This document shows, in pieces, positions 6,536-31,100 of a stretch of DNA of 36,530 nucleotides. The position numbers were made by a program, and so were the translations under genes. How positions within the stretch are numbered: position 1 is the stretch's first letter; each line of letters opens with the position of its first letter. This DNA comes from an uncultured Mucilaginibacter sp. (GTDB taxonomy: Bacteria; Bacteroidota; Bacteroidia; Sphingobacteriales; Sphingobacteriaceae), in assembly GCF_937859865.1 (NCBI RefSeq), contig NZ_CALMAT010000018.1, positions 31,678 to 68,207 on the forward strand, in the 5' to 3' direction. The notes under the pieces are model-generated. The model worked only from the letters and a program-made list of their open reading frames with translations. It ran no database searches and was not told where the DNA came from.

Positions 6536-8653
6536 TTGAAGGCTGATCTGAAAGTTGCATTAATAGGAAACCCAAACACCGGTAAATCCACGCTTTTTAA
6601 TGTTCTTACCGGCCTTAACCAAAAAGTTGGCAATTTCCCCGGCGTTACGGTTGATAAAAAAACCGGTTTCTGTATTTTAAATGATGGCCGCCGCGCCGAA
6701 ATCATTGACCTTCCCGGAACATATAGCTTGTATCCGAAAAGCAAGGACGAGTCTATCGTTTTTTCTGTTCTGGCCGATCGTTCCAATCCACACCATCCTG
6801 ATCTGGTGATTGTTATCTTGGATGCTTCCAACCTCAAACGAAATTTACTGCTTTATACCCAGGTTGCCGATTTGAAAATCCCGGTTATCTTGGCTTTAAA
6901 CATGATGGATTTGGCCAATAAATCCGGGCTGAACATTAACATAAACCTTCTTTCAAAAAAATTAGGTGTTCCTGTTGTCCCGATTTCTGCGCGCAAAGCC
7001 GAAGGAATTACGGCCTTAAAAGAAGCAATTGCTTATGCCAACCGTTTTGCTTTGCAGGAAGATACAATTGATGTAGAGCAATTAGCGCCCGAACTGATCA
7101 GCAGTATCCGCGAAGAAATCCACGTAGAAAATAATTACTACGCTTTGCAATTGGCGCATCAGCACGAATATTTGCCGTTCCTATCTCCGCAGCAAAACGA
7201 CCGGATTGAAACGCTGGAGGAAGAGCACAGCTTTCATTCCCAAAAATCTCAGGCTACCGAAACTATTGCGCGTTACAATTTTATAAACGATGTGCTTTTT
7301 GATGTGGTTACGCGGAAAGAACATTTCGCGGAAAAAGAAAGTTACAGCAACAAAATTGATAAAGTTTTAACCCATAAGGTTTTCGGTTTCGTCATTTTCT
7401 TCGCCATCCTGATGTTCATTTTCCAAGCCATATTTTCCTGGTCGGCTTACCCAATGACGCTGATTGAAAACCTGTTTACCTGGCTCACTTCCGTATTGCA
7501 CAAAACACTTCCGGCCGGACCGTTAACCAGTTTATTGCTTGATGGTGTAATTGCCGGATTAAGCGGCGTGCTGGTTTTCATCCCGCAAATTGCCATCCTG
7601 TTTGCTTTTATTTCGATTTTGGAAGATACGGGCTACATGTCGCGTGTAACTTTTATGATGGACCGCATCATGCGCAAAGTTGGGCTGAACGGAAAATCCG
7701 TCGTACCGCTGATTGGTGGTTTCGCTTGCGCCGTTCCTTCCATCATGAGTACGCGCACCATCGAAAACTGGAAAGACCGCATGATTACCATTATGGTAAC
7801 GCCTTTAATTACCTGTTCTGCACGTTTGCCGGTTTACACGCTGCTTATTTCGCTTGTGGTTCCAAACCGAAATGTGTGGTGGCTTTTCAATTTACAAGGC
7901 TTGGCCATGATGGCGATGTACCTGTTCAGCGTAGTTTCGGCAGTAGTTGTGGCGTTTGTTTTTAAGCTGATTTTGAAGAGCCGCGAACGTGGTTATTTTA
8001 TCATGGAACTGCCCGTTTACCAGATGCCGCGCTGGAAAAACGTAGGTTTAACGATGTACGAACGGTCAAAAACTTTCGTCATCCAGGCCGGGAAAGTTAT
8101 CATCGCCGTTTCAATCATTTTGTGGGTGATGGCTTCGTACGGGCCAGGAAAACGAATGGAGCAGATTGATCAGAAATACAGCAATGCTTCTTTTACCGGC
8201 AAAAAATCAGCGGAGGAAGTGCAGCGTTTAAAAGCAACCGATCAGCTTGAAAATTCTTACGCCGGTATTTTAGGCCATGCCATCGAGCCGGCCATTCGTC
8301 CTTTGGGTTTTGATTGGAAAATTGGCATCGCTTTAATTACTTCCGTTGCTGCCCGCGAAGTTTTTGTAGGAACAATGGCCACGATTTACAGTGTGGATGG
8401 CAATGCCGATAAATTAGATTCGGTGATGGATAAAATGCGGAATGCCAAGAATCCGGAAACAGGTTTGCCGGTTTTCACTTTTGCCGTCGCCATGTCGCTC
8501 ATGATGTTTTACGCTTTTGCCATGCAATGCGCCAGCACGGTTGCTGTGGTTTACCGCGAAACTAAAGAATGGAAATGGCCAGTCATCCAGTTTGCTTACA
8601 TGACGGTGCTGGCTTATGCCGCAAGTTTTATTACTTTCCACCTGTTAAAATAA
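6536..8653 (+). CDS. feoB: Ferrous iron transporter FeoB (GTPase-coupled permease)
   Basis: Inner-membrane Fe2+ importer of 705 residues. The N-terminal G domain has G1 GNPNTGKS (11-18), G3 DLPG (58-61), G4 NMMD (122-125) and a SAR-type G5; a helical linker follows to about 270, then the membrane part with the two nucleoside-recognition (Gate) modules, including GFACAVPSIMSTRTI and a second ITSVAAREVFVGTMATIY. The start must be TTG 6536: no in-frame ATG precedes the G1 loop. A copy of the dispersed repeat lies in a polar loop (residues about 549-553, NASFT) between membrane segments. It follows feoA by six bases. Confidence 0.97.
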   Translation: MKADLKVALIGNPNTGKSTLFNVLTGLNQKVGNFPGVTVDKKTGFCILNDGRRAEIIDLPGTYSLYPKSKDESIVFSVLADRSNPHHPDLVIVILDASNLKRNLLLYTQVADLKIPVILALNMMDLANKSGLNININLLSKKLGVPVVPISARKAEGITALKEAIAYANRFALQEDTIDVEQLAPELISSIREEIHVENNYYALQLAHQHEYLPFLSPQQNDRIETLEEEHSFHSQKSQATETIARYNFINDVLFDVVTRKEHFAEKESYSNKIDKVLTHKVFGFVIFFAILMFIFQAIFSWSAYPMTLIENLFTWLTSVLHKTLPAGPLTSLLLDGVIAGLSGVLVFIPQIAILFAFISILEDTGYMSRVTFMMDRIMRKVGLNGKSVVPLIGGFACAVPSIMSTRTIENWKDRMITIMVTPLITCSARLPVYTLLISLVVPNRNVWWLFNLQGLAMMAMYLFSVVSAVVVAFVFKLILKSRERGYFIMELPVYQMPRWKNVGLTMYERSKTFVIQAGKVIIAVSIILWVMASYGPGKRMEQIDQKYSNASFTGKKSAEEVQRLKATDQLENSYAGILGHAIEPAIRPLGFDWKIGIALITSVAAREVFVGTMATIYSVDGNADKLDSVMDKMRNAKNPETGLPVFTFAVAMSLMMFYAFAMQCASTVAVVYRETKEWKWPVIQFAYMTVLAYAASFITFHLLK
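8184..8195 (-). repeat. Dispersed 12-mer repeat inside feoB
   Basis: ATGCTTCTTTTA followed by CCGGCAAAAAA; it encodes A-S-F-T in a variable loop of FeoB. On the minus strand the flank is TTTTTTGCCGG. Confidence 0.85.
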
Positions 8654-8668
8654 GCGTTACATTACGGC

Positions 8669-9277
8669 GTGGATAAAAAGGAGATTCTTAAAAATTACAT
8701 GCCGGAAGCAGCCGCGCCGGTAATTGCCAAATGGATTGATTATTTTCAATGTGAGTTTAAAGTTTCCCGCAACCGCGGAACCAAATTTGGCGATTACCGT
8801 TCACCTTTTGGCGGAAAAGGGCACCGTATTTCTGTGAATTACGATTTGAATGCTTACGCTTTTTTGGTAACTACGGTACACGAGTTTGCGCATCTTTATA
8901 CTTTTAACCAGCATCAGCACAAAGCAAAACCACACGGAGCCGAATGGAAAAGCAATTTTAAAAGGATGATGAAACCGTTCTTCGAGTTAAATCTTTTTCC
9001 GCCTGATGTAAATCTCGCCATTCATAATTATTTGGATAACCCGGCAGCTTCCAGTTGTTCTGACCTTACTTTATTTCGTGTCCTCAAAAAATATGATGTA
9101 AAAGAAGCATCGGTTATTTTGGTCAAAAAAATCCCGGCAAACGGTTTGTTTAAGTGGAAAGACGGACGCGTTTTCCGCCGGGAAGAACGGCTACGAAAAC
9201 GTTATCGTTGTGTGGAAGTAAGTACGAACCGAATTTATTTGTTTAATCCGGTTGCAGAAGTGGAGTTGGTAAGCTAA
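8669..9277 (+). CDS. SprT-like zinc metalloprotease-fold protein
   Basis: A 202-residue protein with the SprT-like zincin core: HEFAH at residues 71-75 and a third ligand candidate H89 in KPHGAEWK. In this family such proteins bind zinc; the best-studied relative, SPRTN, repairs DNA-protein crosslinks, but the bacterial role is not settled. The start is GTG 8669, 15 bases after the feoB stop, so it is likely in the same transcript. The C-terminal 60 residues are basic and carry a repeat copy that encodes VKEAS (144-148). Confidence 0.85.
   Translation: MDKKEILKNYMPEAAAPVIAKWIDYFQCEFKVSRNRGTKFGDYRSPFGGKGHRISVNYDLNAYAFLVTTVHEFAHLYTFNQHQHKAKPHGAEWKSNFKRMMKPFFELNLFPPDVNLAIHNYLDNPAASSCSDLTLFRVLKKYDVKEASVILVKKIPANGLFKWKDGRVFRREERLRKRYRCVEVSTNRIYLFNPVAEVELVS
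9099..9110 (+). repeat. Dispersed 12-mer repeat inside the SprT-like gene
   Basis: TAAAAGAAGCAT in frame as V-K-E-A-S, with CAAAAAATATGATG ahead of it. Confidence 0.75.
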
Positions 9278-9287
9278 AATGTTTAAC

Positions 9288-9833
9288 CTACATGTCCAGC
9301 ATACTCAAATCAAACTTTGGCGGGATGATATAACGCAATTGCACCAAACCGCTGGAGTAGGATTTATGGTTAATCAGCATCAAATCAATTTTATCTTTTC
9401 CGCTTTGGAACAGTGGTTTTCCTCCGCCTAAAATTAGCGGATGGACGGAAATCAAAAACTCGTCCACCAAATTTTCTGCCATAAAAGAAGCAAGCAGATT
9501 GGCGCCGCCAAAAAACCAAACGTTTTTGCCTTCCTGTTCGCGAAATTTTTTTACAAAAGCAACAAAATCAGATTTACGGATAACTTTTACGCCCAATTGT
9601 TCTTCGGGCACAAGCGTATCCGAAAAAACATAAATATCATGGTTTTCAAAAAATCCAAGTCCGGCCTGCGCAATCAGTTCGTAGCTTTTTCTACCCATAA
9701 ACAAAGCATCGGTATCTTCCGAAAATTCGGTCAAACCGTAATCCTGGTCGTTTAAACACCAATCAATTTCGCCGTTCGGGCCTTCAATATAACCATCTAA
9801 AGTTGTGGCAATGTTAAGTGTGATTTTGCGCAT
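9288..9833 (-). CDS. Dihydrofolate reductase-family protein (RibD C-terminal domain type)
   Basis: A 181-residue NADPH-type reductase of the YyaP/YwjB group. Characteristic segments are LNIATTLDGYIEGPNGEIDW at the start, DALFMGRKSYEL near 42-53, and VWFFGGANLLASFM near 105-118, equivalent to the 'GGa.l...l' nucleotide loop. The end HPLILGGGKPLF is also typical. Substrate is not known for most members. It is convergent with the SprT-like gene with only 10 bases between stops. A near-exact repeat copy (9482-9492) encodes its ASF. Confidence 0.88.
   Translation of the reverse strand: MRKITLNIATTLDGYIEGPNGEIDWCLNDQDYGLTEFSEDTDALFMGRKSYELIAQAGLGFFENHDIYVFSDTLVPEEQLGVKVIRKSDFVAFVKKFREQEGKNVWFFGGANLLASFMAENLVDEFLISVHPLILGGGKPLFQSGKDKIDLMLINHKSYSSGLVQLRYIIPPKFDLSMLDM
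9482..9492 (+). repeat. Repeat core, 11 of 12 bases, inside the DHFR-like gene
   Basis: TAAAAGAAGCA then A instead of T. On the gene strand it reads GCTTCTTTTATG, A-S-F-M. Confidence 0.55.
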
Positions 9834-9919
9834 AGTTTTTTTATGAGGTTAATAGTTAATGGATGATAGTTAATAGTAAACACCAGCCGATGAACCATCA
9901 ACCATAATCCATTGAACCA

Positions 9920-11302
9920 TCAGCTTTCTTCATTCTTCTCTATCCATTGCTGGCTGAAAGATTTAGGCGCAACGTTTGGCATTTCCCGTAAATGTCCCCA
10001 AGTTCCTTTAAATAGAAAGCGTAATAGGAAATTTTTAACGCCTCCGCCAAAATAATCGGTCATTTTTCGGCTCAACATGCCTTTTTTCCATAAAGCCCAG
10101 CCCCAGCGTTCTTTTACCGGATTGAGGTTTTCTTTGACTGAATCGCGGCGGTTAAGCAGCAATAATTTATGCAAATCTATTTTAACGGGACAAACTTCCG
10201 AACATTTTCCGCACAGACTTGAAGCATAACTCAGGTGTTTAAACTCGTCCATGCCTTGCATATGCGGCGTAATGATGGAGCCGATTGGGCCGCTATACGT
10301 GGTTTCGTACGTGTGGCCGCCAATGTTTTTGTAAACCGGACAAGCATTTAAGCAAGCGCCGCAACGGATGCAATACAGAGCCTGCCGCTGGTCTTTTTGC
10401 GCTAATAAATTGGTTCGGCCATTGTCCAACAAAATTACATACATTTCTTCCGGACCGTCGGTTTCCGGGGATTGCCGCGGGCCGCTTAAAATGGTGTTGT
10501 AAACGGTTAAATTTTGTCCCGTTCCATGCGTGGAAAGCAGCGGCCAGAATAAATCCAAATCGGCAATTGAAGGGATCATCTTTTCAATCCCAACAACCGC
10601 AATATGAATTTTGGGGAAAGTAGTGCACAAACGCGCGTTGCCTTCGTTCTCCGTAATCGCGATACTGCCGGAATCAGCAATTAAAAAGTTGGCGCCGGTA
10701 ATGCCAACATCCGCATAAACATATTTTGCCCGTAGCAGTTCGCGTGCTTTTAACGTGAGTTGTTCCGGCGTGGCATCTATCGGCGTGCCAAAACGTTCGT
10801 TAAACAATTTGGCAATATCTTCTTTGGAAAGGTGCATGGCCGGCGTAACAATATGATACGGTTTTTGGCCGAGCAACTGCACAATGTATTCACCTAAGTC
10901 GGTTTCCAAACTTTCGATGTTATTTTCGGTGAGAAATTCGTTGATGTGAATTTCTTCCGTAACCATTGATTTGGATTTGACTACTGTTTTTGCACCTGCT
11001 TTTTGGATGATGTTCAGGATTTCTTTTTGCGCTTCGGCCGCATCGTTCGCCCAAATCACTTTTCCGCCGCGCCGCTGGAAGTTTGCCTCAAACTCAGGCA
11101 AAAGCTTGTCTAAATTTTCCATCACCTTCCACTTCGTTACATGCGCTTTGCGCTTGGCATTTTCAAGGTTGGTTAAACGGGAAATTCCGCGGGCAACGGC
11201 AGCATCATATTTACCAATATTGTGGTTGATGATGCTGCGGTGTTTTAAATCAAAGGCTTTAACTTCAGCTTTCGCAATAAAATCTTCTGCAGTTTTAGTC
11301 AT
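9920..11302 (-). CDS. lutB: Lactate utilization iron-sulfur protein LutB
   Basis: Part of the LutABC L-lactate oxidation system, in which LutB carries the iron-sulfur clusters. The 460 residues have the LUD (DUF162) domain in the first about 290 residues and then two ferredoxin-type motifs, CIRCGACLNACP and CGKCSEVCP, each with the four cysteines for a 4Fe-4S cluster. A C-terminal stretch of about 90 residues follows (WGWALWKKGMLSRKM...). Neither lutA nor lutC is beside it, so the partners must be encoded elsewhere. ATG 11302 is the first start and fits. The upstream gap carries one repeat copy. Confidence 0.93.
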   Translation of the reverse strand: MTKTAEDFIAKAEVKAFDLKHRSIINHNIGKYDAAVARGISRLTNLENAKRKAHVTKWKVMENLDKLLPEFEANFQRRGGKVIWANDAAEAQKEILNIIQKAGAKTVVKSKSMVTEEIHINEFLTENNIESLETDLGEYIVQLLGQKPYHIVTPAMHLSKEDIAKLFNERFGTPIDATPEQLTLKARELLRAKYVYADVGITGANFLIADSGSIAITENEGNARLCTTFPKIHIAVVGIEKMIPSIADLDLFWPLLSTHGTGQNLTVYNTILSGPRQSPETDGPEEMYVILLDNGRTNLLAQKDQRQALYCIRCGACLNACPVYKNIGGHTYETTYSGPIGSIITPHMQGMDEFKHLSYASSLCGKCSEVCPVKIDLHKLLLLNRRDSVKENLNPVKERWGWALWKKGMLSRKMTDYFGGGVKNFLLRFLFKGTWGHLREMPNVAPKSFSQQWIEKNEES

Positions 11303-11376
11303 GCGGTAAATTTACGGATTTAGCCTTTAACGCCGGTTCTTCTGCAAAGGTGTTTGCAATACTAATTTTTATATGA

Positions 11377-11388
11377 TAAAAGAAGCAT
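11377..11388 (+). repeat. Dispersed 12-mer repeat, single copy
   Basis: TAAAAGAAGCAT preceded by ATTTTTATATGA, just outside the stop of the M28 peptidase gene (11394). Confidence 0.88.
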
Positions 11389-11393
11389 CGGCA

Positions 11394-12971
11394 TTATTGG
11401 CTTGCAGCCTTATCGCTTTTTGCATCCACCACCGGCCGTTTATCGCGGTTGGCCAAATCCCAACCGGTATAAAAAACCAATTGTGCGCGTTTTACCAGCA
11501 TCGGGAAATTAATTTTGCTCACTTCATCACTTGGCCGGTGGTAATCCTGATGCTCGCCGTCAAAATAAAAAATAATCGGAACGCCGTGTTTGGCAAAATT
11601 GTAATGATCGGAGCGGTAATAAAAGCGGTTCGGATCGTTAGGGTCATCGTATTTATAATCCAGGTCGAGCTTGGTAAATTTATTATTGGCTTCCTCGTTT
11701 ATTTTGTGCAAATCCGAACTCAACATCGCCGAACCAATCACATAAACATAATTGGAAGAATCTGCTTTGCCCTGATAATCGTAACCCGTGCGGCCAATCA
11801 TATCAATGTTTAAATCGGTAATGGTTTGGCTGAGCGGAAAAACTGGATGATCGGTATAATATTCTGATCCTAACAAACCTTTTTCTTCGCCCACATTTCC
11901 TAAAAACAAAATGCTGCGGCGTGCAGGATGGCCATCTTTTTTAGCTTGGGTAAATGCTCGTGCAATTTCCAAGATTCCAGTTGTGCCAGAGCCATCATCG
12001 TCAGCGCCGTTATTTACTTTATCTGTTCCGGTTGTGGTGAGGCCGATGTGATCATAATGCGCAGAAAAAACCAGGATTTCATCTTTTAATTTAGGATCTG
12101 ATCCTGGCAAAAAACCCAAAACATCAACCGCTTTTGCCGGTTTGGTTTCGGTGTGATAAGCAACCGTAAAATCAAACTTTATGGATTTTGCCGGAACAAC
12201 TCCTGCTGCCGATGCTGTTTTTATCGCATTAAAATCTTGTCCGGTTGGTTTTGTCAATGCATCAGCAACAGCCAAATCAATGTTGATTACCGGCGCATTT
12301 TGGGTTGCAGCGGCAGGCGTCTCTTTTTTAAGCGACAAACTGCTTCCTGTATAACTCGAACCAAAACGTTTCAACACATCTGCAATTCCGACGTTTGCTG
12401 CCAGAATCACTGCCGGATGTTTACTTTGGATTTCCCGGATGATCTTAGTTCGGGCGGCACTCATCCGGTAGCTGGTGTTTGGCGTTGCACCAGCTTCGGG
12501 TTTATCTTCGTTGATCCAAAGCAAAACTTTACCGCTTAAATCAGTCGTTCCTATTTCTTCTGAAGTTCCGTAACCGATAAAAATAACTTCGGTGGCATGT
12601 GTATTGGTATTGCCAAAAGTGCCGCGCATTAAAAAGTCTTTTCCGTTTTCAAAAGATAGATTATTTATGGAAAAGGCCGTTACTTTCAGCGTATTTTCTT
12701 CTAAAGGAACATCTAAAAAATAAGAACCGTTGACCGGAGCTTGCAAACCCATTTTTTTAAATTCGCCTGCAAGGTAGTTAGCTGCTTTTTCTGCGCCGGG
12801 TTGGCCGGTTTCGCGTCCTTCAAAAGCATCAGAAGCCAGGATAGTTAAGTGTTTTCTGGCATCATCTACTGAAATGTACGAAGCATATTTTTGCTGTAAA
12901 GCATCGGTTTTTTGTGCATTGGCGTAACTGAAAAAAGCAGCAGGAATCAAGCAAAAGAGTAGTTTTTTCAT
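11394..12971 (-). CDS. Secreted M28-family zinc aminopeptidase
   Basis: A 525-residue exported peptidase. ATG 12971 is chosen because it opens on the signal peptide MKKLLFCLIPAAFFSYANAQ; a TTG six bases upstream is less likely. The mature part has an N-terminal helper region (SDAFEGRETGQPGAEKAANYL), a PA-type insert around residues 120-260, and the M28 catalytic domain with HYDHIG, the D-D-D-G-S-G zinc region, NVGEEKGLLGSEYY (catalytic and zinc glutamates), LNIDMIGR and a late HRPSDEV histidine. Substrate cannot be read from sequence. It is 17 bases downstream of rpiB on the same strand and probably co-transcribed. Confidence 0.92.
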   Translation of the reverse strand: MKKLLFCLIPAAFFSYANAQKTDALQQKYASYISVDDARKHLTILASDAFEGRETGQPGAEKAANYLAGEFKKMGLQAPVNGSYFLDVPLEENTLKVTAFSINNLSFENGKDFLMRGTFGNTNTHATEVIFIGYGTSEEIGTTDLSGKVLLWINEDKPEAGATPNTSYRMSAARTKIIREIQSKHPAVILAANVGIADVLKRFGSSYTGSSLSLKKETPAAATQNAPVINIDLAVADALTKPTGQDFNAIKTASAAGVVPAKSIKFDFTVAYHTETKPAKAVDVLGFLPGSDPKLKDEILVFSAHYDHIGLTTTGTDKVNNGADDDGSGTTGILEIARAFTQAKKDGHPARRSILFLGNVGEEKGLLGSEYYTDHPVFPLSQTITDLNIDMIGRTGYDYQGKADSSNYVYVIGSAMLSSDLHKINEEANNKFTKLDLDYKYDDPNDPNRFYYRSDHYNFAKHGVPIIFYFDGEHQDYHRPSDEVSKINFPMLVKRAQLVFYTGWDLANRDKRPVVDAKSDKAASQ

Positions 12972-12987
12972 GGTCAATATTTTGGTT

Positions 12988-13410
12988 TTAGCAGGAGATC
13001 TTGTTCACGCGGTTGGCGTGGCGGCCGCCTTCAAATTCGGTGGTTAAAAATGTTTGGGTGATGGCTAATGCTTCTTTTACCGGTATAAATCTGGCGGGCA
13101 AACAAAGGACGTTGGCGTTGTTATGTTTTCTGGCCAGGCTGGCCAGTTCTATGTTCCAGCAAATAGCGGCACGGATTCCCTGGTGTTTGTTTGCCGTGAT
13201 GGCGATACCGTTTCCGCTGCCGCAAATTAAAATGCCTAAATCAAATTCGCCATTTTCAACAGCAAAAGCAACTGGATGCGCAAAATCAGGATAATCAACC
13301 GATTCGGCAGAATACGTTCCAAAATCTTTTAGTTGATATTCGGTTAGAGACGAACGTAACGTTTCTTTCAGTTCAAATCCGGCATGGTCTGCACCTATCG
13401 CAATTTTCAT
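12988..13410 (-). CDS. rpiB: Ribose-5-phosphate isomerase B
   Basis: Interconverts ribose 5-phosphate and ribulose 5-phosphate in the pentose phosphate pathway. The 140 residues fit the family: MKIAIGADHAGFELKE at the start, DYPDFAH, the LGILICGSGNGIAITANK loop with the catalytic-site cysteine and GSGxG turn, and a C-terminal GGRHANRVNKI. The start at 13410 is unambiguous. One repeat copy lies in frame near the C-terminus and encodes VKEAL. Confidence 0.95.
   Translation of the reverse strand: MKIAIGADHAGFELKETLRSSLTEYQLKDFGTYSAESVDYPDFAHPVAFAVENGEFDLGILICGSGNGIAITANKHQGIRAAICWNIELASLARKHNNANVLCLPARFIPVKEALAITQTFLTTEFEGGRHANRVNKISC
13068..13079 (-). repeat. Dispersed 12-mer repeat inside rpiB
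   Basis: On the gene strand the flank is ATTTATACCGG before TAAAAGAAGCAT, coding V-K-E-A-L. Confidence 0.85.
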
Positions 13411-13414
13411 GGCA

Positions 13415-13426
13415 TAAAAGAAGTAT
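13415..13426 (+). repeat. Variant repeat core TAAAAGAAGTAT
   Basis: One change (C to T) from the main core. It starts four bases upstream of the rpiB start codon, so it overlaps the translation-initiation region of rpiB on the other strand. Confidence 0.6.
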
Positions 13427-13480
13427 GTTTAAAAATCAGTTTAATTTTAGCACCTGTTTAAATCTATAAAAAAAATATTG

Positions 13481-13576
13481 ATGCTTCTTTTATGCCTATA
13501 AATTTAGTGTGCCTGGAAATTTTACGGGTACAAAAACCACAAAAAGACAATGATTTTTAGGTGGTAAAAGAAGCAT
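13481..13576. repeat. Inverted pair of the 12-mer repeat (13481-13492 minus, 13565-13576 plus)
   Basis: Two exact cores face outward over 72 bp, with symmetric flanks TGCCTATAAATTTAG and GATTTTTAGGTGG. The spacer differs from the other pairs. It lies in the 207-bp gap between tatC and rpiB. Confidence 0.9.
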
Positions 13577-13617
13577 GGCAAATTAGTTTAACAAAATTTA
13601 AACAGGTTCTTAGAAAT

Positions 13618-14493: not shown

Positions 14494-14507
14494 AATGCAG
14501 TAGAAAC

Positions 14508-14540
14508 AAAAATACCATTCTGGTGGGATTTAGAATGGTA
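14508..14540 (-). terminator. Intrinsic terminator of the accB-accC transcript
   Basis: On the minus strand TACCATTC pairs with GAATGGTA (plus-strand 14533-14540 with 14513-14520) around a 12-base loop and is followed by TTTTTG. It is 28 bases past the accC stop and ahead of tatC. Confidence 0.65.
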
Positions 14541-14567
14541 CTTACGTTTAAATTTATAATCGGTTTT

Positions 14568-21885: not shown

Positions 21886-21894
21886 AATATCCGC

Positions 21895-21902: not shown

Positions 21903-21920
21903 CCTGAAATATTAAACAAA

Positions 21921-22868
21921 GTGCCTGCTTCCATCCAAAAAAAAATACTAATCGTCGATGACCTCCACCCAGCTTTCGCCCAGGCTGCCGAAAAATTAGG
22001 TTATACCTGCACTATTGATGCTTCTTTTACCCGAGAAAAAACGTTAAGCGTAATTGCAGATTACGAAGGTTTGGCGATAAGAACCAAGTTTCAAGTAGAT
22101 CAGGAAATTATAGATGCGGCACCAAAACTGCGTTTTATTGCACGCGCCGGAGCCGGAATGGACAACATAGACGAAATTTATGCCGATAAAAGAAGCATCG
22201 CCTGCATCAACGCGCCCGAAGGAAATAGTGATGCCGTTGGCGAACATGCTGTTGGTTTGCTGCTTTCGCTGATGAATAATTTTAGGAAAGCGGATATCGA
22301 AATCAGAAACGGCATTTGGGACCGCGAAGGCAACCGCGGCTATGAACTGAAAGGCAAAACCGTTGGCATTATTGGTTACGGCCACATGGGCAAAAGTTTC
22401 GCCCAAAAACTAAGTGGTTTTGGTGTGGAAGTGATTGCTTATGATAAATACAAAACCGGCTTTTCCGACAAGTTTGCGCGCGAAGTAAGCATGGAAGAAA
22501 TTGTGCGGTTAAGCAATGTCATCAGTTTTCATATTCCGCTTACACCAGAAACCAAAGGCATGGTGGATGATGAATATCTGTTCCATTTCCGCAAACCGAT
22601 TTTTTTGCTAAATACCTCGCGCGGAGAAATCGCCAAAGTACAAGCTATTTTAAACGGGATAAAAAGCGGCAAAATTTTGGGTGCAGGTTTGGATGTTTTG
22701 GAAACAGAAAAATTTCCGTCGCTGGCAGAACAAAGCTGGTTTGAGGAACTAAAAAGCAGTGGCCGTGTTTTGTTAACGCCGCACATTGCCGGCTGGACAT
22801 TTGATTCGTACCGGAAAATAAGCGAAGTGCTGGCCGAAAAACTGAAAAATTTGGAGTTTAAGGTTTAA
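21921..22868 (+). CDS. NAD-dependent D-2-hydroxyacid dehydrogenase
   Basis: A 315-residue member of the D-isomer 2-hydroxyacid dehydrogenase family (phosphoglycerate, hydroxypyruvate or lactate type). The nucleotide fold is clear: GKTVGIIGYGHMGKSFAQKL (the GxGxxG turn), followed by an acidic residue in VIAYDKYK. Catalytic residues can be placed at R in NTSRGEIAK, the E of the LDVLETE segment, and H in TPHIAGWT. The substrate is not clear from sequence. The start is taken as GTG 21921 because a promoter box covers the earlier TTG. Two dispersed repeat copies lie in frame (DASFT at 33-37, DKRSI at 89-93). Confidence 0.9.
   Translation: MPASIQKKILIVDDLHPAFAQAAEKLGYTCTIDASFTREKTLSVIADYEGLAIRTKFQVDQEIIDAAPKLRFIARAGAGMDNIDEIYADKRSIACINAPEGNSDAVGEHAVGLLLSLMNNFRKADIEIRNGIWDREGNRGYELKGKTVGIIGYGHMGKSFAQKLSGFGVEVIAYDKYKTGFSDKFAREVSMEEIVRLSNVISFHIPLTPETKGMVDDEYLFHFRKPIFLLNTSRGEIAKVQAILNGIKSGKILGAGLDVLETEKFPSLAEQSWFEELKSSGRVLLTPHIAGWTFDSYRKISEVLAEKLKNLEFKV
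22018..22029 (-). repeat. Dispersed 12-mer repeat inside the dehydrogenase gene
   Basis: ATGCTTCTTTTA followed by CCCGAGAAAAAA, coding A-S-F-T. It forms an outward-facing pair with the copy at 22187, 181 bp end to end. Confidence 0.85.
22187..22198 (+). repeat. Second repeat copy inside the dehydrogenase gene
   Basis: TAAAAGAAGCAT with flank ATTTATGCCGA, coding K-R-S-I. Confidence 0.85.
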
Positions 22869-22892
22869 AGTTTTTATCTTCGTTCTAACAAA

Positions 22893-22936: not shown

Positions 22937-22946
22937 AAAAACGTTG

Positions 22947-22974: not shown

Positions 22975-23009
22975 AGTTTATAACAACCAGAATTTAAAGA
23001 TATTTGATC

Positions 23010-23483: not shown

Positions 23484-23552
23484 GTTTAGTTTATAGGTAA
23501 TAGTTTATTGATAATAGTTCATAGTTCAGAACCTAACTTTTAACACAACAAC

Positions 23553-23954: not shown

Positions 23955-23967
23955 GATTTTATGCCGA

Positions 23968-24006
23968 TAAAAGAAGTATCGTGCTAAACCAACAATGCTT
24001 CTTTTA
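23968..24006. repeat. Inward-facing pair: variant core 23968-23979 and exact core 23995-24006
   Basis: TAAAAGAAGTAT (variant) with flank TTTTATGCCGA, then ATGCTTCTTTTA. The last three bases of the second core (24004-24006) are the stop codon of ruvC on the minus strand. Confidence 0.85.
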
Positions 24007-24603
24007 CACTACTTTTTTTGCGATAACTGCTGGCGAAGCAACACGTTTTACATTATCTTTCACAAAAGATTCCCAACCGGTATAGCTCTTTTTGGCGCCG
24101 CTTTTGGTGCTGATTTTTTGGAATGAATGGCAAACTGCAACCGCCAAACCATCCGTGGCATCCAAAAAATCGGGCGTTTCGTTAAACTTTAGCAAATTTT
24201 GCAGCATGGCGGCAACCTGTTCTTTGCTGGCGTTTCCGTTTCCGGTGATGGACTGCTTGATTTTTCGTGGCGAATACTCTGTAATTTCCACATTACGGGA
24301 AAGTGCCGCCGCCATCGCTACGCCTTGCGCGCGTCCCAATTTCAGCATCACTTGGATATTTTTGCCATAAAAAGGCGCTTCAATCGCCAAACAATCCGGG
24401 TGGTAATTATCAATTAAATTGACGGTTTTTTCAAAAATACGCTGCAGTTTCAGCATGTGGTCGTCCAGATGTTCCATCTTCACCACGCCCAAACTCAGCA
24501 GTTCCAGCTTTTGTCCGTTCTCTTTCACCAAACCGTAACCCATCACTTTCGTTCCGGGGTCAATGCCTAAAATAATCCGCTCTTTCGATTTTTCCACCTG
24601 CAT
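24004..24603 (-). CDS. ruvC: Holliday junction endonuclease RuvC
   Basis: Resolves four-way DNA junctions with RuvAB. The 199 residues have the first catalytic aspartate D15 in RIILGIDPGTKVMGYG, the glutamate in CLAIEAPFYGKN, and the late aspartates in FLDATDGLAVAVCH. The ATG at 24603 gives the normal N-terminus; a TTG at 24621 is less likely. Its TAA stop is provided by the dispersed repeat, and the C-terminal tail (about 40 residues, KKSYTGWESFVKDNVKR...) is basic. ruvA and ruvB are not in the window. Confidence 0.96.
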   Translation of the reverse strand: MQVEKSKERIILGIDPGTKVMGYGLVKENGQKLELLSLGVVKMEHLDDHMLKLQRIFEKTVNLIDNYHPDCLAIEAPFYGKNIQVMLKLGRAQGVAMAAALSRNVEITEYSPRKIKQSITGNGNASKEQVAAMLQNLLKFNETPDFLDATDGLAVAVCHSFQKISTKSGAKKSYTGWESFVKDNVKRVASPAVIAKKVV

Positions 24604-24648
24604 AGAACAAGTATAGCCCAAATCCGTAACATTGCAAAAAATTTAGCC

Positions 24649-25620
24649 TTGGCCCGTATTGCCCGTAAAACGCTTGGTTACCTGTTAAAAGCAGGGATTT
24701 TACTGCTTACCATCTGGTTTGTTTACCGGCACGTTAACCACAACAAAAACCTGGAGCAATTTGTAAACCGTATCCATTCGGTTGGGCAAAACCAGGTTTA
24801 CGCAGGCTTGATTGCCGTTACTTTGCTGATGTTTTTGAATTGGGTTTTAGAAGCCGTGAAATGGAAATACCTGACCAAGCTGCTCGAAAAAATGAGTTTG
24901 TGGAAATCTATCGAAGCCGTTTTTTGCGGATTAACCATGGCGATCATCACCCCAAACCGCATTGGCGAATATGGCGGCCGGATTTTGTACCTACCACCAA
25001 GAAAACGCATTCACGGCATTTTTGCGATGGCCGTTGGTGCTTTCGGCCAAAATACCGTAACCAATGTGGTGGGCACTTTGTCGCTGCTGTATTTAATTTA
25101 CACGTATCAGCATTTAAACTTTTGGCTTTCTTTTGGGATCACCGTGTTCGGTGCTGTTTTTATCCTTGCTTTTTTGTTGTTGTATTTTCGCATCCGCTGG
25201 CTGGTGTTTTTGCTGGATAAGATCAAATTCCTCCAAAAATACCACCGCTTTTTTAGCATCATGGCCAAGTACAGCTTCCCGCAATTAACTTTGATTATGT
25301 TACTGAGCCTGGCACGTTTTGTGGTTTTTTCTTCGCAATATTATATTTTGATCCATATTTTGCTGCCCGATTTGCATTTAATCCCGGTGATGGTGATGGT
25401 TTTTAACCTGTTTTTTATCCAGTCGGCCATCCCGTCTTTGGATTTGCTGGATATTGGCGTGCGCAACTTCATCGCCAATTATCTGTTCGGGTTTATCACC
25501 ACGCAATCGGTCGCCATTATGGCTTGTGTATCTTGCATCTGGCTGATCAATCTGATCATTCCTGCGGTGATCGGTTCTGTTTTTGTACTTAAACTTAACT
25601 TCTTTGGCAACAATACTTAG
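24649..25620 (+). CDS. LPG-synthase-type integral membrane protein (UPF0104)
   Basis: A 323-residue membrane protein with about eight hydrophobic segments. The segment pattern and the motif TPNRIGEYGGRILYLPPRKR (about residues 99-118) fit the lysylphosphatidylglycerol synthase transmembrane (flippase-like) family. Function in Bacteroidota is not known. TTG 24649 is the only start that gives the first membrane segment; no early ATG exists. Its 3' end overlaps the GT2 gene, so they are likely coupled, perhaps in lipid or glycan work; that link is inference. Confidence 0.8.
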   Translation: MARIARKTLGYLLKAGILLLTIWFVYRHVNHNKNLEQFVNRIHSVGQNQVYAGLIAVTLLMFLNWVLEAVKWKYLTKLLEKMSLWKSIEAVFCGLTMAIITPNRIGEYGGRILYLPPRKRIHGIFAMAVGAFGQNTVTNVVGTLSLLYLIYTYQHLNFWLSFGITVFGAVFILAFLLLYFRIRWLVFLLDKIKFLQKYHRFFSIMAKYSFPQLTLIMLLSLARFVVFSSQYYILIHILLPDLHLIPVMVMVFNLFFIQSAIPSLDLLDIGVRNFIANYLFGFITTQSVAIMACVSCIWLINLIIPAVIGSVFVLKLNFFGNNT

Positions 25621-26737
25621 TTCGGCAGCAGTTTTATTTACGGTTTTGTATGTGCTTTTGTTTGTGTTTTTGATCCGCGGCTGGCTGCGTATCAAGCCCA
25701 ATTTTTATGTGCTAAAAACAGCATATCAAACCAAAGTAACGGTATTAATTGCTGCGCGGAATGAAGAGGCCGGCATCCACAAAACCATCGAAGATATTTT
25801 GGCGCAGCAATATCCGAAGGCATTATTGGAAGTGATTATTGCCGATGACCACTCAACAGATCGTACCGCCGAAATTATTTTAAGTTATGCGAATCGCGGC
25901 ATAAAATTGTTGCAGTTGAAAGAAGACCGGGTCTTAAATTCGTACAAAAAGAAAGCCATCAGCGAAGCCATCCGTTTATCAACCGGCGATTTAATGGTGG
26001 CTACCGATGCCGATTGTCGCATGGGCGTGCACTGGTTGGAAGCGATTGTAACTAAGTTTGAAGAAAGTAACGTGTTGATGTTGTCCTCGCCGGTTGCTTT
26101 TTTTGAAGATAAAAATTTGTTCGAAAGTATGCAGGCGCTGGAGTTTTCGGCTTTTATCGGTTTAGGCGCGGCAACCATCGGCAACCGAAAAGCTTCCACT
26201 TGCAACGGCGCAAATTTGGCCTATAAAAAAAGTGTTTTTAACGAAGTTGGCGGTTTTAAAGGAATTGATGATCTGGCCTCCGGCGATGACGAGCTGCTGC
26301 TGCAAAAAATAGCTGCCAGATACCCGAAGGGAATCCAATTTTTAAAGCAGCGCGAAGCCATCGTTTATACGCACGCCAAACCAAACTGGGAAGAATTTAA
26401 GCAGCAACGCCGCCGCTGGGCATCAAAGTCGGTGAAGTATAAAGACAAATCCATTGTGGCTTTGTCGGTTGGTTTCTGGCTTTTCAACGCCATTATCCTG
26501 GTAAATTTGGTGGCCGGCATTTTCAACCCATACTTTTTAAAAGTTGCCGGCTTGCAATTACTTTTTAAAATTTTTGCCGAAGGCATCTTTTTATTTCTTG
26601 TCGCCATGTTTTTTAAACGGCGTAAACTGCTGTTTTTGCTGCCTTTAGGTTCTTTGCTGCACGTTTTTTACGTGGTTTACATCGGCATCATTGGCAACAA
26701 AGGCACGTACGAATGGAAAGGCCGGAAAGTGCATTGA
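25583..26737 (+). CDS. Family 2 glycosyltransferase, membrane-anchored
   Basis: Transfers a sugar from a nucleotide donor; acceptor unknown. An N-terminal membrane segment (about 8-33) is followed by the GT-A fold: VTVLIAARNEEAGIHKTI, IIADDHSTDRT, the DADC metal motif, a catalytic-region GDDELLL and the QQRRRWASKS motif (like QxxRW), then three or so membrane helices at the C-terminus. This layout is that of processive or polyprenyl-type GT2 enzymes. The start is uncertain: TTG 25583 is the longest, but TTG 25604 or later starts are possible; all overlap the upstream gene. Confidence 0.9.
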   Translation: MYLNLTSLATILSSAAVLFTVLYVLLFVFLIRGWLRIKPNFYVLKTAYQTKVTVLIAARNEEAGIHKTIEDILAQQYPKALLEVIIADDHSTDRTAEIILSYANRGIKLLQLKEDRVLNSYKKKAISEAIRLSTGDLMVATDADCRMGVHWLEAIVTKFEESNVLMLSSPVAFFEDKNLFESMQALEFSAFIGLGAATIGNRKASTCNGANLAYKKSVFNEVGGFKGIDDLASGDDELLLQKIAARYPKGIQFLKQREAIVYTHAKPNWEEFKQQRRRWASKSVKYKDKSIVALSVGFWLFNAIILVNLVAGIFNPYFLKVAGLQLLFKIFAEGIFLFLVAMFFKRRKLLFLLPLGSLLHVFYVVYIGIIGNKGTYEWKGRKVH

Positions 26738-26816
26738 CATATTTTTGAAAATAAAATAGGGTTTTGAAGCACCAAAGCCTATATTTAAACTTTAAAACAT
26801 TCCTGTTGAACAGCCA

Positions 26817-28001
26817 TTGACCAAAGCCAATCTTTCTTCTAACCAAAAAATTTTCTTTCAAAATAAATTAGCCGTTGCCGGAATGTTGTTGATTTTGTTC
26901 ACATCGCTTGTTGCCGTTTTAGGTTATCTGATTACGCCCGACGGCACGCCGCAAGCCAACGATATGCTGGTGCAACTGGGCCTGAAAAAGCCTGGTGCTT
27001 CTTTTACCATCCTCCGCATTAAAAAAGAAGACCGCACGGATACCGTCAATTTTATTAGTAAAATGCTGTTCGGCCAGCCTTCGCCCTGGCACAACGTGCC
27101 GATAACCCATTATCGTTTCAACAAAGATTCCATTTACGTCCGCGAATACATCGGCGATGAAGATGTGGCCGCAGAAACTGCTTACAACATTTATAAAATC
27201 AGTGGTAAAAAAAGCATTGCGGATAATCCTTCAACCCAAGACACCAAAAAAGAGGTGCTAAAAGAAGCATTGCCCCAAGTGCAAAAAGAAATAACAGACC
27301 AGCAAATCATCAAAAAAACATTTTGGTTGGGCACAGATATTTATGGCCGCGATATGTTAAGCCGGTTAATTATTGGTGCCCGAATCTCACTTGCTGTGGG
27401 TTTCGTATCTGTACTAATTAGTTTGATTGTTGGCGTAACTGTTGGTTCGGCCGCAGGTTATTTTGGCGGAAAAACAGACGAATTGCTGAGCTGGCTGATG
27501 AATGTTTTATGGGCCTTGCCGGCGCTGCTGCTGGTGATTGCCATCTCTTTTGCTTTAGGCAAAGGTTTATGGCAGATATTTGTAGCCGTTGGCCTTTCCA
27601 TGTGGGTAGAAGTTGGCCGTTTGGTGCGCGGCCAGGTAATCGCCTTAAAACAAGTTGAATTTATTGAAGCGGCGCGTGCTTTGGGTTTTGGTCATTACCG
27701 CATAATCCGCCATCATATTTTGCCCAATATTACCGGGCCAATTTTGGTTTTGGCGGCTTCTAATTTTGCTTCGGCTATTTTGCTCGAAGCCGGTTTAAGC
27801 TTTTTGGGTTACGGCGCGCAACCGCCAACGCCCACTTGGGGCGCCATGATTAAAGAACATTATGGTTACATTGTGATAGATTCAGCTTATCTTGCTATTT
27901 TGCCGGGGTTGGCCATCATGTTGATAGTTTATGCTTTTAATGTGGTAACTATTGGCTTGCGCGATGCGTTTGATGTTAAATCACAAAATACGCGGATTTA
28001 A
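26817..28001 (+). CDS. ABC transporter permease, DppC/OppC type
   Basis: Inner-membrane permease of a peptide or nickel-type ABC importer. The 394 residues start with the OppC N-terminal helix (KLAVAGMLLILFTSLVAVLGYLI), have an unusually long periplasmic region (about 45-170), then the core: FWLGTDIYGRDMLSRLIIGAR, five helices, and the EAA-like loop EAARALGFGHYRIIRHHILPN. The partner permease, ATPases and binding protein are not here. The only sensible start is TTG 26817. Two repeat copies sit in the long periplasmic region (GASFT about 60-64, LKEAL 148-152), not in the conserved core. Confidence 0.92.
   Translation: MTKANLSSNQKIFFQNKLAVAGMLLILFTSLVAVLGYLITPDGTPQANDMLVQLGLKKPGASFTILRIKKEDRTDTVNFISKMLFGQPSPWHNVPITHYRFNKDSIYVREYIGDEDVAAETAYNIYKISGKKSIADNPSTQDTKKEVLKEALPQVQKEITDQQIIKKTFWLGTDIYGRDMLSRLIIGARISLAVGFVSVLISLIVGVTVGSAAGYFGGKTDELLSWLMNVLWALPALLLVIAISFALGKGLWQIFVAVGLSMWVEVGRLVRGQVIALKQVEFIEAARALGFGHYRIIRHHILPNITGPILVLAASNFASAILLEAGLSFLGYGAQPPTPTWGAMIKEHYGYIVIDSAYLAILPGLAIMLIVYAFNVVTIGLRDAFDVKSQNTRI
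26996..27006 (-). repeat. Repeat core, 11 of 12 bases, inside the permease gene
   Basis: TGCTTCTTTTA preceded by G rather than A, in GGTGCTTCTTTTACC, coding G-A-S-F-T. Confidence 0.55.
27259..27270 (+). repeat. Dispersed 12-mer repeat inside the permease gene
   Basis: TAAAAGAAGCAT with GGTGC just before it, coding L-K-E-A-L in the periplasmic region. Confidence 0.75.
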
Positions 28002-28035
28002 TCAATATAAATGATGAGGGAAGAAGTATAATTTC

Positions 28036-29271
28036 ATGCAAAACGTCAACAATAATTCTGAAGAGGATGAACTGATCCGCCTGCTTTTAAAAAGACAGGC
28101 AGAATTAAATGCTTTGCTGGAAGTAACCCAGGCAATCAACAAAAGTGCCACGACGGCAGTTTTGCTAGACATGCTGGAAGTGATTTTGAAAGATTACCTG
28201 CAAGTGGGCAAGTTCCGGTTTATGGCCGAAGTGGAAAACCGCTTTAAATGCGTTTCTTACTACGGCGGCGAGTTTGAGCAGCACCGCGTATTGCTGAAAG
28301 CCTGCAAAGGTTTAGGGAAATTTAAAGGGCCCGTACAAGTTAGCTTATACGAAAACGAAATCCTGTGCGATTACGATTACTTTATCCCGGTTTTTCAAAA
28401 AAACAAACTGCTGGCTTTTGCACTCATTGGCGATTTTAAAACCACGCCGCAAATGCTGGGCAACGACCTCAACTTTATCCAAACGCTTTCCAACGTGATT
28501 GTGGTGGCTTTGGAGAACAAAAAGCTGTTTAGAAAACGCATCGAGGCCGAACGCTTTCAGCGCGAAATGGAACTGGCGGGTGATGTGCAGCAAATGCTGA
28601 TCCCGATTACCATTTACAACGAGCCGGGGATTGAAGTTGGCGCGCGTTATTTGCCGCACCAAAATATCGGCGGCGATTATTACGATTTTATCCGCCTAAA
28701 CGAAGATGAATTTTTGTGGTGTATTGCCGATGTTTCCGGCAAAGGTGTTTCTGCCGCTTTGCTGATGGCCAATTTGCAAGCCAGTTTGCGCGCTTGGGCA
28801 TCGGTGGTAGAAGATTTGACAACCATCATCGAAAAGCTAAACGATGTAATCATCAAAACCACCCGCGGCGAAAAATTTATTACTATATTTTTGGGAAAAT
28901 TTAACCAGAAAAGCCGGATGCTCAGCTACATTAATGCCGGCCATAACCCGTCCATCGTTTACCACAAAGGCTGCATCACCGAGCTAAAATTAGGCACCAC
29001 TATTATTGGTGTTTTGGATAAGCTGCCCTTTGTAAACATGGGCGAAATGCTGCTGGAAGAAGAGTTTACGATTTTTAATTATACCGATGGCTTGATCGAA
29101 TACGACGAGGAAAGCCCAAACTGGAACGAAAAAAAGCTGCGCGAATATGTAAAAACGCACGGCAAATTAAAACCCGACCATTTCAACACCAAAATACTCG
29201 ACCACATCAACCGCCAGGTTAAAGGCAAACCCATTGATGATATTACATTGCTCACCATTTGTTGTAAATAA
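28036..29271 (+). CDS. GAF-SpoIIE/PP2C phosphatase (RsbU-like)
   Basis: A cytosolic serine phosphatase likely acting on an anti-sigma antagonist or STAS protein. The first about 30 residues form a coil, a GAF-like sensor spans about 30-170, a helical linker (KRIEAERFQREMELAGDVQQML) follows, and the phosphatase runs about 190-411. Metal and catalytic motifs are present: NIGGDYYDF, DVSGKGVSAALLMA, NAGHNPS, YTDGLIE and DDITLL. No kinase or STAS gene is adjacent. ATG 28036 fits. Confidence 0.93.
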   Translation: MQNVNNNSEEDELIRLLLKRQAELNALLEVTQAINKSATTAVLLDMLEVILKDYLQVGKFRFMAEVENRFKCVSYYGGEFEQHRVLLKACKGLGKFKGPVQVSLYENEILCDYDYFIPVFQKNKLLAFALIGDFKTTPQMLGNDLNFIQTLSNVIVVALENKKLFRKRIEAERFQREMELAGDVQQMLIPITIYNEPGIEVGARYLPHQNIGGDYYDFIRLNEDEFLWCIADVSGKGVSAALLMANLQASLRAWASVVEDLTTIIEKLNDVIIKTTRGEKFITIFLGKFNQKSRMLSYINAGHNPSIVYHKGCITELKLGTTIIGVLDKLPFVNMGEMLLEEEFTIFNYTDGLIEYDEESPNWNEKKLREYVKTHGKLKPDHFNTKILDHINRQVKGKPIDDITLLTICCK

Positions 29272-29290
29272 AACACCAATTTTTGACCGG

Positions 29291-29302
29291 TAAAAACAGT
29301 AT
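29291..29302 (+). repeat. Variant repeat core TAAAAACAGTAT
   Basis: Flank TTTTTGACCGG, identical in type to main copies. It lies just upstream of the rnhB start. Confidence 0.5.
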
Positions 29303-29321
29303 CAATTCAGTTCAAAATTTG

Positions 29322-29966
29322 ATGATGGCCACGAACAACAGACCGGCACTTTTACCGCGCTATCAGCACACGTTGTTGGAAGCCGGTTGCGATGAAGCAG
29401 GCCGTGGTTGTTTGGCCGGGCCGGTTTTTGCCGCCGCCGTTATTTTGCCGCAGGACTTTGTTCATTCCGAACTGCACGATTCTAAGCAATTGGATGAAAA
29501 AACGCGCGACCAATTGCGATTGGAGATTGAAAAAACAGCTTTGGCTTTTGCCGTAGCTTCGGTTGATAATTTGGAGATTGACCAAATCAATATTCTGCAA
29601 GCTTCCATTCTGGCCATGCACCGCGCACTGGATATGCTTCTTTTACCACCCGAATTTTTGATTGTTGACGGCAATTATTTCAAAAAATACAATTCGCTCG
29701 ATCATGCCTGCATTGTAAAAGGTGATTGCAAATATTACAGCATCGCGGCCGCCTCCGTCCTGGCAAAAACCTACCGCGATGATTACATGAAAAAAATCGC
29801 CCAAGAACATCCCGAATACCACTGGCATCAAAACAAAGGTTATCCAACCCAAAAACACCGCTCGGTTATTTTAGAAAAAGGGTTTACGCCTTATCACCGG
29901 CTAACTTTTCGGGTCCGCGATCCGCTTTTAGACGGTTCAAAAAGCACTGCTGTTCCAGCCGGTTAA
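29322..29966 (+). CDS. rnhB: Ribonuclease HII
   Basis: Removes RNA from RNA-DNA hybrids and single ribonucleotides. The 214 residues have the start of the fold EAGCDEAGRGCLAGPVFAAAV with the two acidic catalytic residues (DE), and later VDGN and DYMKKIAQEHPEYHWHQNKGYPT, all family marks. ATG 29322 is taken as the start, since the earlier in-frame TTG (29283) is ahead of the repeat variant and adds 13 atypical residues. One repeat copy encodes MLLLP (about 105-109). Confidence 0.95.
   Translation: MMATNNRPALLPRYQHTLLEAGCDEAGRGCLAGPVFAAAVILPQDFVHSELHDSKQLDEKTRDQLRLEIEKTALAFAVASVDNLEIDQINILQASILAMHRALDMLLLPPEFLIVDGNYFKKYNSLDHACIVKGDCKYYSIAAASVLAKTYRDDYMKKIAQEHPEYHWHQNKGYPTQKHRSVILEKGFTPYHRLTFRVRDPLLDGSKSTAVPAG
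29634..29645 (-). repeat. Dispersed 12-mer repeat inside rnhB
   Basis: ATGCTTCTTTTA coding M-L-L-L; on the minus strand it is preceded by AAAAATTCGGGTGG. Confidence 0.8.
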
Positions 29967-29992
29967 TTGCATTGCCCTTCTCCTTATTTTGC

Positions 29993-30000
29993 TACTTTTG
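29993..30000 (+). promoter_or_regulatory. Promoter -7 box of gcvT (TACTTTTG)
   Basis: Exact match to TAnnTTTG, 20 bases before the gcvT ATG. A TTG at 29972-29974, 18 bases upstream, could serve as the -33 element. Confidence 0.65.
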
Positions 30001-30020
30001 CCACCACAAAAATTGTTACC

Positions 30021-31100
30021 ATGAAAACTACTGCCCTCACCGATACACACATAAAAACCGGTGCCAAAATGGTGCCTTTTGCCGGTTACAACATGCCGGT
30101 TACCTACGCCGGGATTAATGCCGAACATGATACCGTGCGTAAAGCGGTTGGGGTTTTTGATGTGAGCCATATGGGCGAATTTATTTTGAAAGGCGAAAAA
30201 GTATTAGATCTGATCCAGAAAGTAACCACCAACGATGCTTCAAAATTGTACGACGGCAAAGTGCAATATTCCTGTTTGCCGAACGAAAATGGCGGTATTG
30301 TAGATGATTTGCTGGTTTACCGTTTGAACGAGAAAACCTACATGCTCGTGGTAAATGCTTCCAACATCGAAAAAGATTGGGACTGGATTTCGAAATACAA
30401 CGATTTTGGTGTGGAGATGAAAAACATTTCCGACCGCACCTCGCTGCTGGCCGTGCAAGGCCCGAAAGCTGCCGAAGCGTTGCAAAGCTTAACCGATGTT
30501 GACCTCGCTTCGATGGAATATTATACCTTTAAAAGAAGCATTTTTGCCGGGATCAACAACGTAATTATTTCTGCAACAGGTTATACCGGTGCCGGTGGTT
30601 TTGAAATTTATTTTGATAACGATCACGCCGAAACCATTTGGAACGCCATTTTTAAAGCCGGCGAACCTTTTGGCATCAAACCGATTGGTCTCGCTGCGCG
30701 CGATACTTTGCGTTTGGAAATGGGTTTTTGTTTGTACGGAAACGATATTGACGATACCACTTCTCCGCTCGAAGCCGGTTTGGGCTGGGTCACCAAATTC
30801 AGTAAAGATTTTGTGAATTCCGAAGCCTTGAAACAGCAAAAAGAAGCAGGCATCAGCAAAAAGTTGGTTGGTTTTGAAATGATCGAACGCGGCATTCCGC
30901 GCCACAATTACGAAATTGTTGATGCTGAAGGAAACGTAATCGGCAAAGTAACTTCCGGCACACAATCGCCATCGTTGCAAAAAGCAGTTGGGTTGGGTTA
31001 TGTGAGCAATACTTTTGCCAAAGAAGGAACAGAAATCTACATCAAAATCCGCGATCAAAAAATCAAAGCCAAAGTAGTGAAGCCGCCTTTTTACAAATAA
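30021..31100 (+). CDS. gcvT: Glycine cleavage system T protein (aminomethyltransferase)
   Basis: Transfers the methylene group from the H-protein lipoyl arm to tetrahydrofolate, releasing ammonia. The 359 residues begin [20 protein letters not shown] and include [32 protein letters not shown], the folate-site Asp in [15 protein letters not shown] and [20 protein letters not shown]. The start is ATG 30021, right after a promoter; an upstream TTG frame is an extension into promoter. A repeat copy encodes FKRSI (170-174). Confidence 0.97.
30530..30541 (+). repeat. Dispersed 12-mer repeat inside gcvT
   Basis: TAAAAGAAGCAT with ATTATACCTT ahead, coding K-R-S-I. Confidence 0.75.

Follow-up and report, generated by a model that had tools for sequence, protein, structure and literature searches.

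Uptake sequences are named for two families only, the Neisseriaceae and the Pasteurellaceae, in the portions of PMC7811141 drawn on here, and the corresponding portions of a study of frequent terminator words across prokaryotes name uptake motifs in two known families only (PMC13020248); all papers cited below are used in such excerpts. In the Pasteurellaceae, the uptake signal sequence (USS) consists of a core, GCGG, with downstream AT tracts, whereas the DNA uptake sequence (DUS) of the Neisseriaceae is continuous, has no AT tract, contains CTG as its core and has the minor pilin ComP as its receptor (PMC12616744). A gradual mismatch profile has been described for the uptake sequences of Haemophilus and Neisseria, as well as for some other frequent words, and the share of copies lying within genes is given as 65% in H. 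influenzae and 35% in N. gonorrhoeae (described and cited, respectively, in PMC1939737). Here we analyse a word, ATGCTTCTTTTA, that recurs between and within the genes of a 36,530-nt stretch (the window) of the genome of an uncultured Mucilaginibacter sp., a member of the Bacteroidota. Its copies probably represent a genus-wide DNA recognition motif that works as a DNA uptake sequence, and we infer that the protein recognising it acts in DNA uptake.

The genus is represented by three genomes, namely that of the window (G000, 3,976,085 bases) and those of two congeners, G001 and the 92% complete G002, all of them included in a sample of 399 genomes of the family. In a biotin carboxylase tree of 57 rows the three form a clade (100/99), which joins the Mucilaginibacter rows (98/98) with no resolved order inside the group. 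Orthologues and reading frames were studied on parts of 593 kb (G000), 397 kb (G001) and 220 kb (G002), where genes were called with a home-made gene finder that missed some genes and may have kept some false ones.

Abundance, strand and anatomy of the motif

The window holds 24 exact and 12 one-mismatch copies of the motif, where 0.42 were expected and the maximum in 100 shuffles was 2. Across the genome of G000 there are 2,114 exact copies, 1,055 forward and 1,059 reverse (1/1 for the reversed control), and the congeners hold 1,947 and 1,118, while each of the other 396 genomes of the family sample has at most 12. The motif thus shares with uptake sequences an abundance far above chance, thousands of copies in related genomes and the lack of an orientation bias, both strands being intermixed along the contigs. 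The 80 named AccC loci contain a single exact copy in total (in L048), no exact motif pair occurs in the viral contigs searched, and Rfam and tRNA scans of the window gave nothing.

Near matches are also over-represented, and in the graded fashion known from uptake sequences. On the 593 kb of G000, the ratio of observed to expected sites falls from 1525 for exact copies, a value that depends on an expected count of 0.2, obtained with 30 permuted motifs, through 25, 2.8, 1.5 and 1.1 to 1.05 at five mismatches; the corresponding series in G001 is 720, 18, 3.2, 1.5, 1.2 and 1.1, and the profile of G002 is alike. A restriction-modification signal or a Chi-like recombination signal could also be very strongly over-represented, as other signal words are, but the motif is non-palindromic and about 29 bp long, and Chi would not lead one to expect equal strand counts mixed along contigs (as counted here without reference to the direction of replication). 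We consider this explanation highly improbable.

The length of the motif became apparent from 173 exact sites in 331 kb, in which information reaches about position +28: position +12 is pyrimidine-rich, +13 is C, and an AT tract at +18..+23 is followed by T and a weak RGTG. The whole motif of about 29 bp therefore reads as the core ATGCTTCTTTTA, then roughly [CT]C[AG][CG], the AT tract and the weak RGTG, with the tract lying about one helical turn past the T run of the core. The C at +13 is present in 74-84% of each class of sites in G000 and G001, while in G000 the positions +19..23 are all A or T at 93% of the solitary intergenic and 74% of the genic sites. A flank rule proposed for the genic copies in an earlier, sequence-only reading of the window holds up: 74-80% of genic sites have the all-AT run at +19..23, against 3-7% at +30..34.

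This layout resembles the USS of the Pasteurellaceae in its short core with a downstream AT tract, as well as in the many copies, the absence of orientation bias, the gain by point change and the mismatch gradient (PMC12616744, PMC1939737). In contrast, its core is unrelated (neither GCGG nor CTG occurs within ATGCTTCTTTTA, both strands read), it has one AT tract instead of two, its host belongs to the Bacteroidota, no type IV pilus ATPase was found in G000-G002, and fewer of its copies are genic, 70 of 305 exact ones in G000 compared with the H. influenzae share (PMC1939737). With DUS it has in common a short word in great number and, in the congeners, a similar genic share (56/168 exact copies in G001 and 16/46 in G002, next to the N. 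gonorrhoeae value; PMC1939737), but it differs in the AT tract, the core and the pilin receptor. Hence, with another core, another host family and no pilus ATPase found, the motif is a member of neither group.

Copies are much denser outside genes. In G000 there are 0.14 per kb in coding and 2.5 per kb in non-coding DNA (1.6 when the pairs described below are excluded), in G001 0.16 and 2.1, and in G002 0.09 and 0.63. Intergenic sites, pairs included, are commonest between convergent genes, at 4.76 per kb in G000 (2.43 between tandem and 1.54 between divergent genes), 3.05 in G001 and 1.61 in G002. Such an intergenic excess, above all between convergent genes, could be expected of a binding site for an intracellular DNA protein acting at thousands of places in nucleoid organisation, chromosome folding or termination, and the length of the motif, together with its AT tract, would be in keeping with protein binding. 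We nevertheless find this unlikely, given that the strands are equal and mixed along contigs, that copies lie within conserved genes, and that the motif is limited to three genomes of one genus among the 399 sampled. Intracellular protein sites of such number and length are, moreover, unusual. The gradient in mismatch load also speaks against them, although by itself it does not decide the matter, being found for other frequent words (PMC1939737).

Outside these three genomes, a word of the TGCACAT/ATGTGCA type occurs in L014, L017, L019, L023, L030, L035 and L056, mostly from Mucilaginibacter, with 5-8 copies per 19-21 kb on both strands. It is among the weaker words, and loci of 21 kb are too short to decide on a comparable motif in other genera.

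Copies within genes

The sequence-only reading had placed exact copies in eight positions of conserved genes, and all eight are found there. Those in feoB (8184..8195, +; NASFT), in the SprT-like gene (9099..9110, -; VKEAS) and in the 2-hydroxyacid dehydrogenase gene (22018..22029, +; DASFT; and 22187..22198, -; DKRSI) are exact in both congeners, while that in rpiB (13068..13079, +; VKEAL) has one mismatch in each; of the named outgroup rows, 4/7, 5/9, 21/22, 22/22 and 38/38, respectively, are ungapped. The remaining three were compared with the congeners only: the copy in the ABC permease (27259..27270, -; LKEAL) is exact in G001 with one mismatch in G002, that in rnhB (29634..29645, +; MLLLP) has one mismatch in G001 and is exact in G002, and that in gcvT (30530..30541, -; FKRSI) has one mismatch in both. 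The near-exact copies predicted for three genes are likewise present with one mismatch each, in the RibD_C/DHFR-like gene (9482..9493, -), twice in the ABC permease (26995..27006, +; 27206..27217, -) and in the mazG-type gene (32199..32210, +; TIKEA), and the nine gene identities named are backed by Pfam. Further one-mismatch copies lie in feoB (7017), in a HIT gene (23929) and in the gene at 34520-36943 (35235 and 35886).

That no copy breaks a frame is true, but it says little, because a copy within an open gene cannot break one. A few peptides recur: measured on 593 kb of G000 and 617 kb of the two congeners, the 139 exact solitary genic sites read as KEA (60), ASF (33), KRS (23), MLLL (22) and CFF (1), while the sixth frame would give a stop.

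How these copies arose can be judged from relatives, of which at least one could be aligned for 67 of the 139 sites. Of the eight exact copies in window genes, five (feoB, SprT, rpiB and the two of the dehydrogenase) had outgroup orthologues, which come mainly from about 20 kb around accC. In total, 207 of 232 outgroup rows (identity at least 45%) are ungapped at the site, with at least one such row for each of 26 sites; the evidence is thinner than these totals suggest, since 13 of the 26 are these five window positions, each counted in as many as three species, and the remaining 13 are covered by one or two rows apiece. The 25 gapped rows have 1-3 gap positions and no constant unit, and 22 of them fall at feoB and SprT, where the alignment is loose. 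The motif is absent from every outgroup row listed: these rows show 2-11 core mismatches and mostly different residues, with single residues often in common and -EA retained by many outgroups at rpiB. As the outgroups are mostly gapless at the site and lack the motif, the testable genic copies, in effect five positions in depth, arose by substitution, the mode of gain known for uptake sequences. Insertion of a unit into genes, which would leave a constant gap in the relatives, is unsupported where it could be tested. Within the genus, a gap of 1-2 residues at the site was seen in two rows (G001 20355 against G000; G002 179774 against G001), and four further gapped rows are hits at 29-31% identity that we took as paralogues.

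The gain by point change suggested by the sequence-only reading is thus borne out at genic sites with outgroups, where the proposed alignment reveals no gap of fixed size; it does not extend to part of the intergenic pairs, which lie within inserted elements. Nor are the peptides strictly conserved in distant orthologues, a result that would have made the copies ordinary coding sequence. At the five positions with enough outgroup rows, the site columns rank low in outgroup conservation, near the 1st percentile of the gene for feoB and SprT and near the 20th for rpiB and the dehydrogenase.

Within the genus, the DNA of the genic sites is maintained. After within-genus rows of 25-32% identity had been set aside as paralogues by a 55% identity filter, leaving 14-20 sites per species pair, the 12-mer was identical at 14 of 20 sites between G000 and G001 (2.3 expected, judged by in-phase 12-mers of these genes) and at 12 of 17 between G000 and G002 (2.1 expected). 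The four other species comparisons, the six not being independent, gave 10/14, 13/16, 12/14 and 12/14 against 1.7, 2.1, 1.7 and 1.5. Where the residue is kept, so is the codon in 76 of 79 cases at sites (96%), compared with 4394 of 7336 elsewhere (60%); across species comparisons the figures are 91-97% and 60-63%. The size of these differences points to a constraint or drive acting on the DNA.

Paired copies, mobile elements and motif-poor DNA

Many intergenic copies of G000 form convergent pairs 80-84 bp apart. Counting exact convergent pairs with cores 60-76 bases apart, we found 202 in G000, 117 in G001 and 23 in G002, which amount to 19%, 12% and 4% of the exact copies. An alignment of 38 pairs showed that many have in common an interior that is asymmetric and is framed by outer inverted repeats close to GAGCCTGTTTAAATTT, together making elements of about 160 bp. 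One of them occupies 13450..13609 of the window, with outer inverted repeats GCACCTGTTTAAAT / AAATTTAAACAGGTTC, TTA on either side and the motif pair 13481/13565 within, in a stretch about 163 bp longer in G000 than in both congeners. A second convergent pair (1311..1404, 82 bp apart) also lies in a stretch longer than in the congeners, by 176-185 bp, and a third is intergenic at 4975..5055 (69 bp apart). Matching 3-bp flanks were seen in 8 of the 15 elements tested (of 16 measuring 141-181 bp), 7 of the 8 being TTA or TAA. Eight pairs of G000 could be placed in a congener: five are in stretches 148-288 bp longer, and three in stretches of equal length, so not all pairs are recent.

Part of the pairs therefore have the inverted ends, the short target duplication and the empty site in relatives that characterise miniature inverted-repeat transposable elements (MITEs), and the convergent pairs are a separate fraction of the copies, spread partly by insertion. 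Two insertion sequences in G000 and G002 (L205, L209), each about 930 bp in length, carry a DDE_Tnp_1 gene; by eye, their ends match the element ends in 13 of 16 bases, and they may be what moves the 160-bp elements. Repetitive extragenic palindrome doublets (REPINs) and their associated transposases (RAYTs) find no clear support as the source of copies; the three genomes have 1, 2 and 1 Y1 genes, with 3, 6, 4 and 1 motif copies (at most one mismatch) within 1.5 kb. The paired copies share with REPIN/RAYT and MITE families their shortness, dispersal and inverted ends, but the solitary genic copies, unlike them, are no elements.

One could extend this origin to all copies, viewing them as relics of a mobile element (MITE or REPIN) whose inner ends bear the motif, since the pairs, their flanks and the longer stretches all speak for mobility. 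We consider this very unlikely. The pairs hold only the minor share of exact copies given above, and in G000 element ends were found within 75 bp at 44 of 84 paired sites but at only 2 of 69 genic and 12 of 136 solitary intergenic ones (background 1.7%). The testable genic copies, as described, show no constant gap in relatives. Finally, positions +19..21 read AAA in 56 and TTT in 44 of the 139 genic sites of the three genomes, whereas in 99 paired intergenic sites they read AAA in 91 and TTT in none. As A and T are interchangeable in the genic flank, the genic sites were not copied from one source, and as no paired site has TTT, the genic copies seem not to descend from elements; instead, to judge from their letters, they look as if they converged on a shape. 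A mobile origin is hence contradicted for the testable genic copies and stands for part of the pairs.

A different arrangement is seen at 6216..6237 of the window, where an overlapping divergent motif pair forms a 22-bp palindrome. Close inverted copies of this kind (10-32 bp) recur genome-wide and may act as terminators.

The motif is also unevenly spread. In contig C1 of G002, the 50-120 kb interval has 5 sites (at most one mismatch), compared with 82 in the remaining 150 kb. Pfam scans of 8 of the 10 large genes of this stretch and of its left edge identified Argonaute (Piwi), HsdM, a serine recombinase, a KAP NTPase, a TrwC relaxase and an outer-membrane barrel, with NB-ARC/TPR and TrkA_N proteins at the left edge (loci L122 and L172-L174; 44-115 kb). 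Gene kinds such as these suggest recently gained mobile DNA.

Proposed recognition and uptake of motif-bearing DNA

The mismatch profile, the strand balance, the intergenic excess, the placement at weakly conserved positions and the scarcity in the defence island all fit an uptake sequence. We propose that competent cells would bind motif-bearing DNA via a putative surface receptor, that the bound DNA would pass ComEC, and that recombination would then swap the homologous stretch. Motif-like variants would in this way be copied into chromosomes more often than others, and molecular drive would assemble the motif through point changes at any place where the sequence can bear them, chiefly in intergenic DNA; within genes, it would be built in the KEA, ASF, KRS or MLLL frames at weakly constrained positions.

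ComEC, DprA and HHH_3 proteins with open frames are present in G000, G001 and G002. In Riemerella anatipestifer, another member of the Bacteroidota, transformation requires ComEC, DprA, ComF and RecA, together with a helix-hairpin-helix protein and envelope proteins unlike those of known machines, and the outer-membrane step of Bacteroidota transformation is so far a proposal (PMC8459023). This genus resembles R. anatipestifer in possessing ComEC and DprA, and since transformation there involves proteins unlike known machines, a pilus-free uptake route is plausible here by analogy. The two differ in that the term 'uptake sequence' is absent from the text of PMC8459023. Among the literature matches listed (titles and abstract starts), there is no report of an uptake sequence in Bacteroidota; 'uptake signal sequence' together with 'Bacteroidota' gave no match, and the letters of ATGCTTCTTTTA matched only work on Campylobacter transporters and lung cancer.

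Several observations weigh against an uptake role. A similar pattern could result from any sequence-specific protein for which many sites are of benefit, and the peak between convergent genes would also be compatible with a function close to the ends of genes. Choosing genic sites that are exact in one species biases the within-genus comparison somewhat towards slowly changing positions. ComEC, DprA and HHH_3 proteins were found in all 7 family genomes tested and are therefore not peculiar to this genus. Furthermore, PF00437, the ATPase of type II secretion and type IV pili, has no match over the cut-off in G000-G002 (below it, none in G000 and one each in G001 and G002), while G003 and G007 have one match each over the cut-off and G005 and G014 none. 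By this search, in which pilins themselves were not included, the type IV pilus machinery known from the described uptake systems was not found, which makes a receptor resembling the known minor pilin unlikely.

We could speculate further that the motif represents a third independent invention of sequence-specific uptake, in Bacteroidota, without a type IV pilus and with a new receptor, and that a MITE gained two facing motifs, which would aid its own transfer by transformation. This extended scenario is put forward tentatively, as one that may equally well turn out to be wrong. If the motif is indeed an uptake sequence, it would bring the cases to three, the new one belonging to a different phylum and apparently lacking the pilus on which the known receptor sits, and would indicate that this trait can evolve with other machinery. 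It would also offer an outside test for the molecular-drive model, and the motif could be used as bait to fish for the DNA receptor of Bacteroidota transformation.

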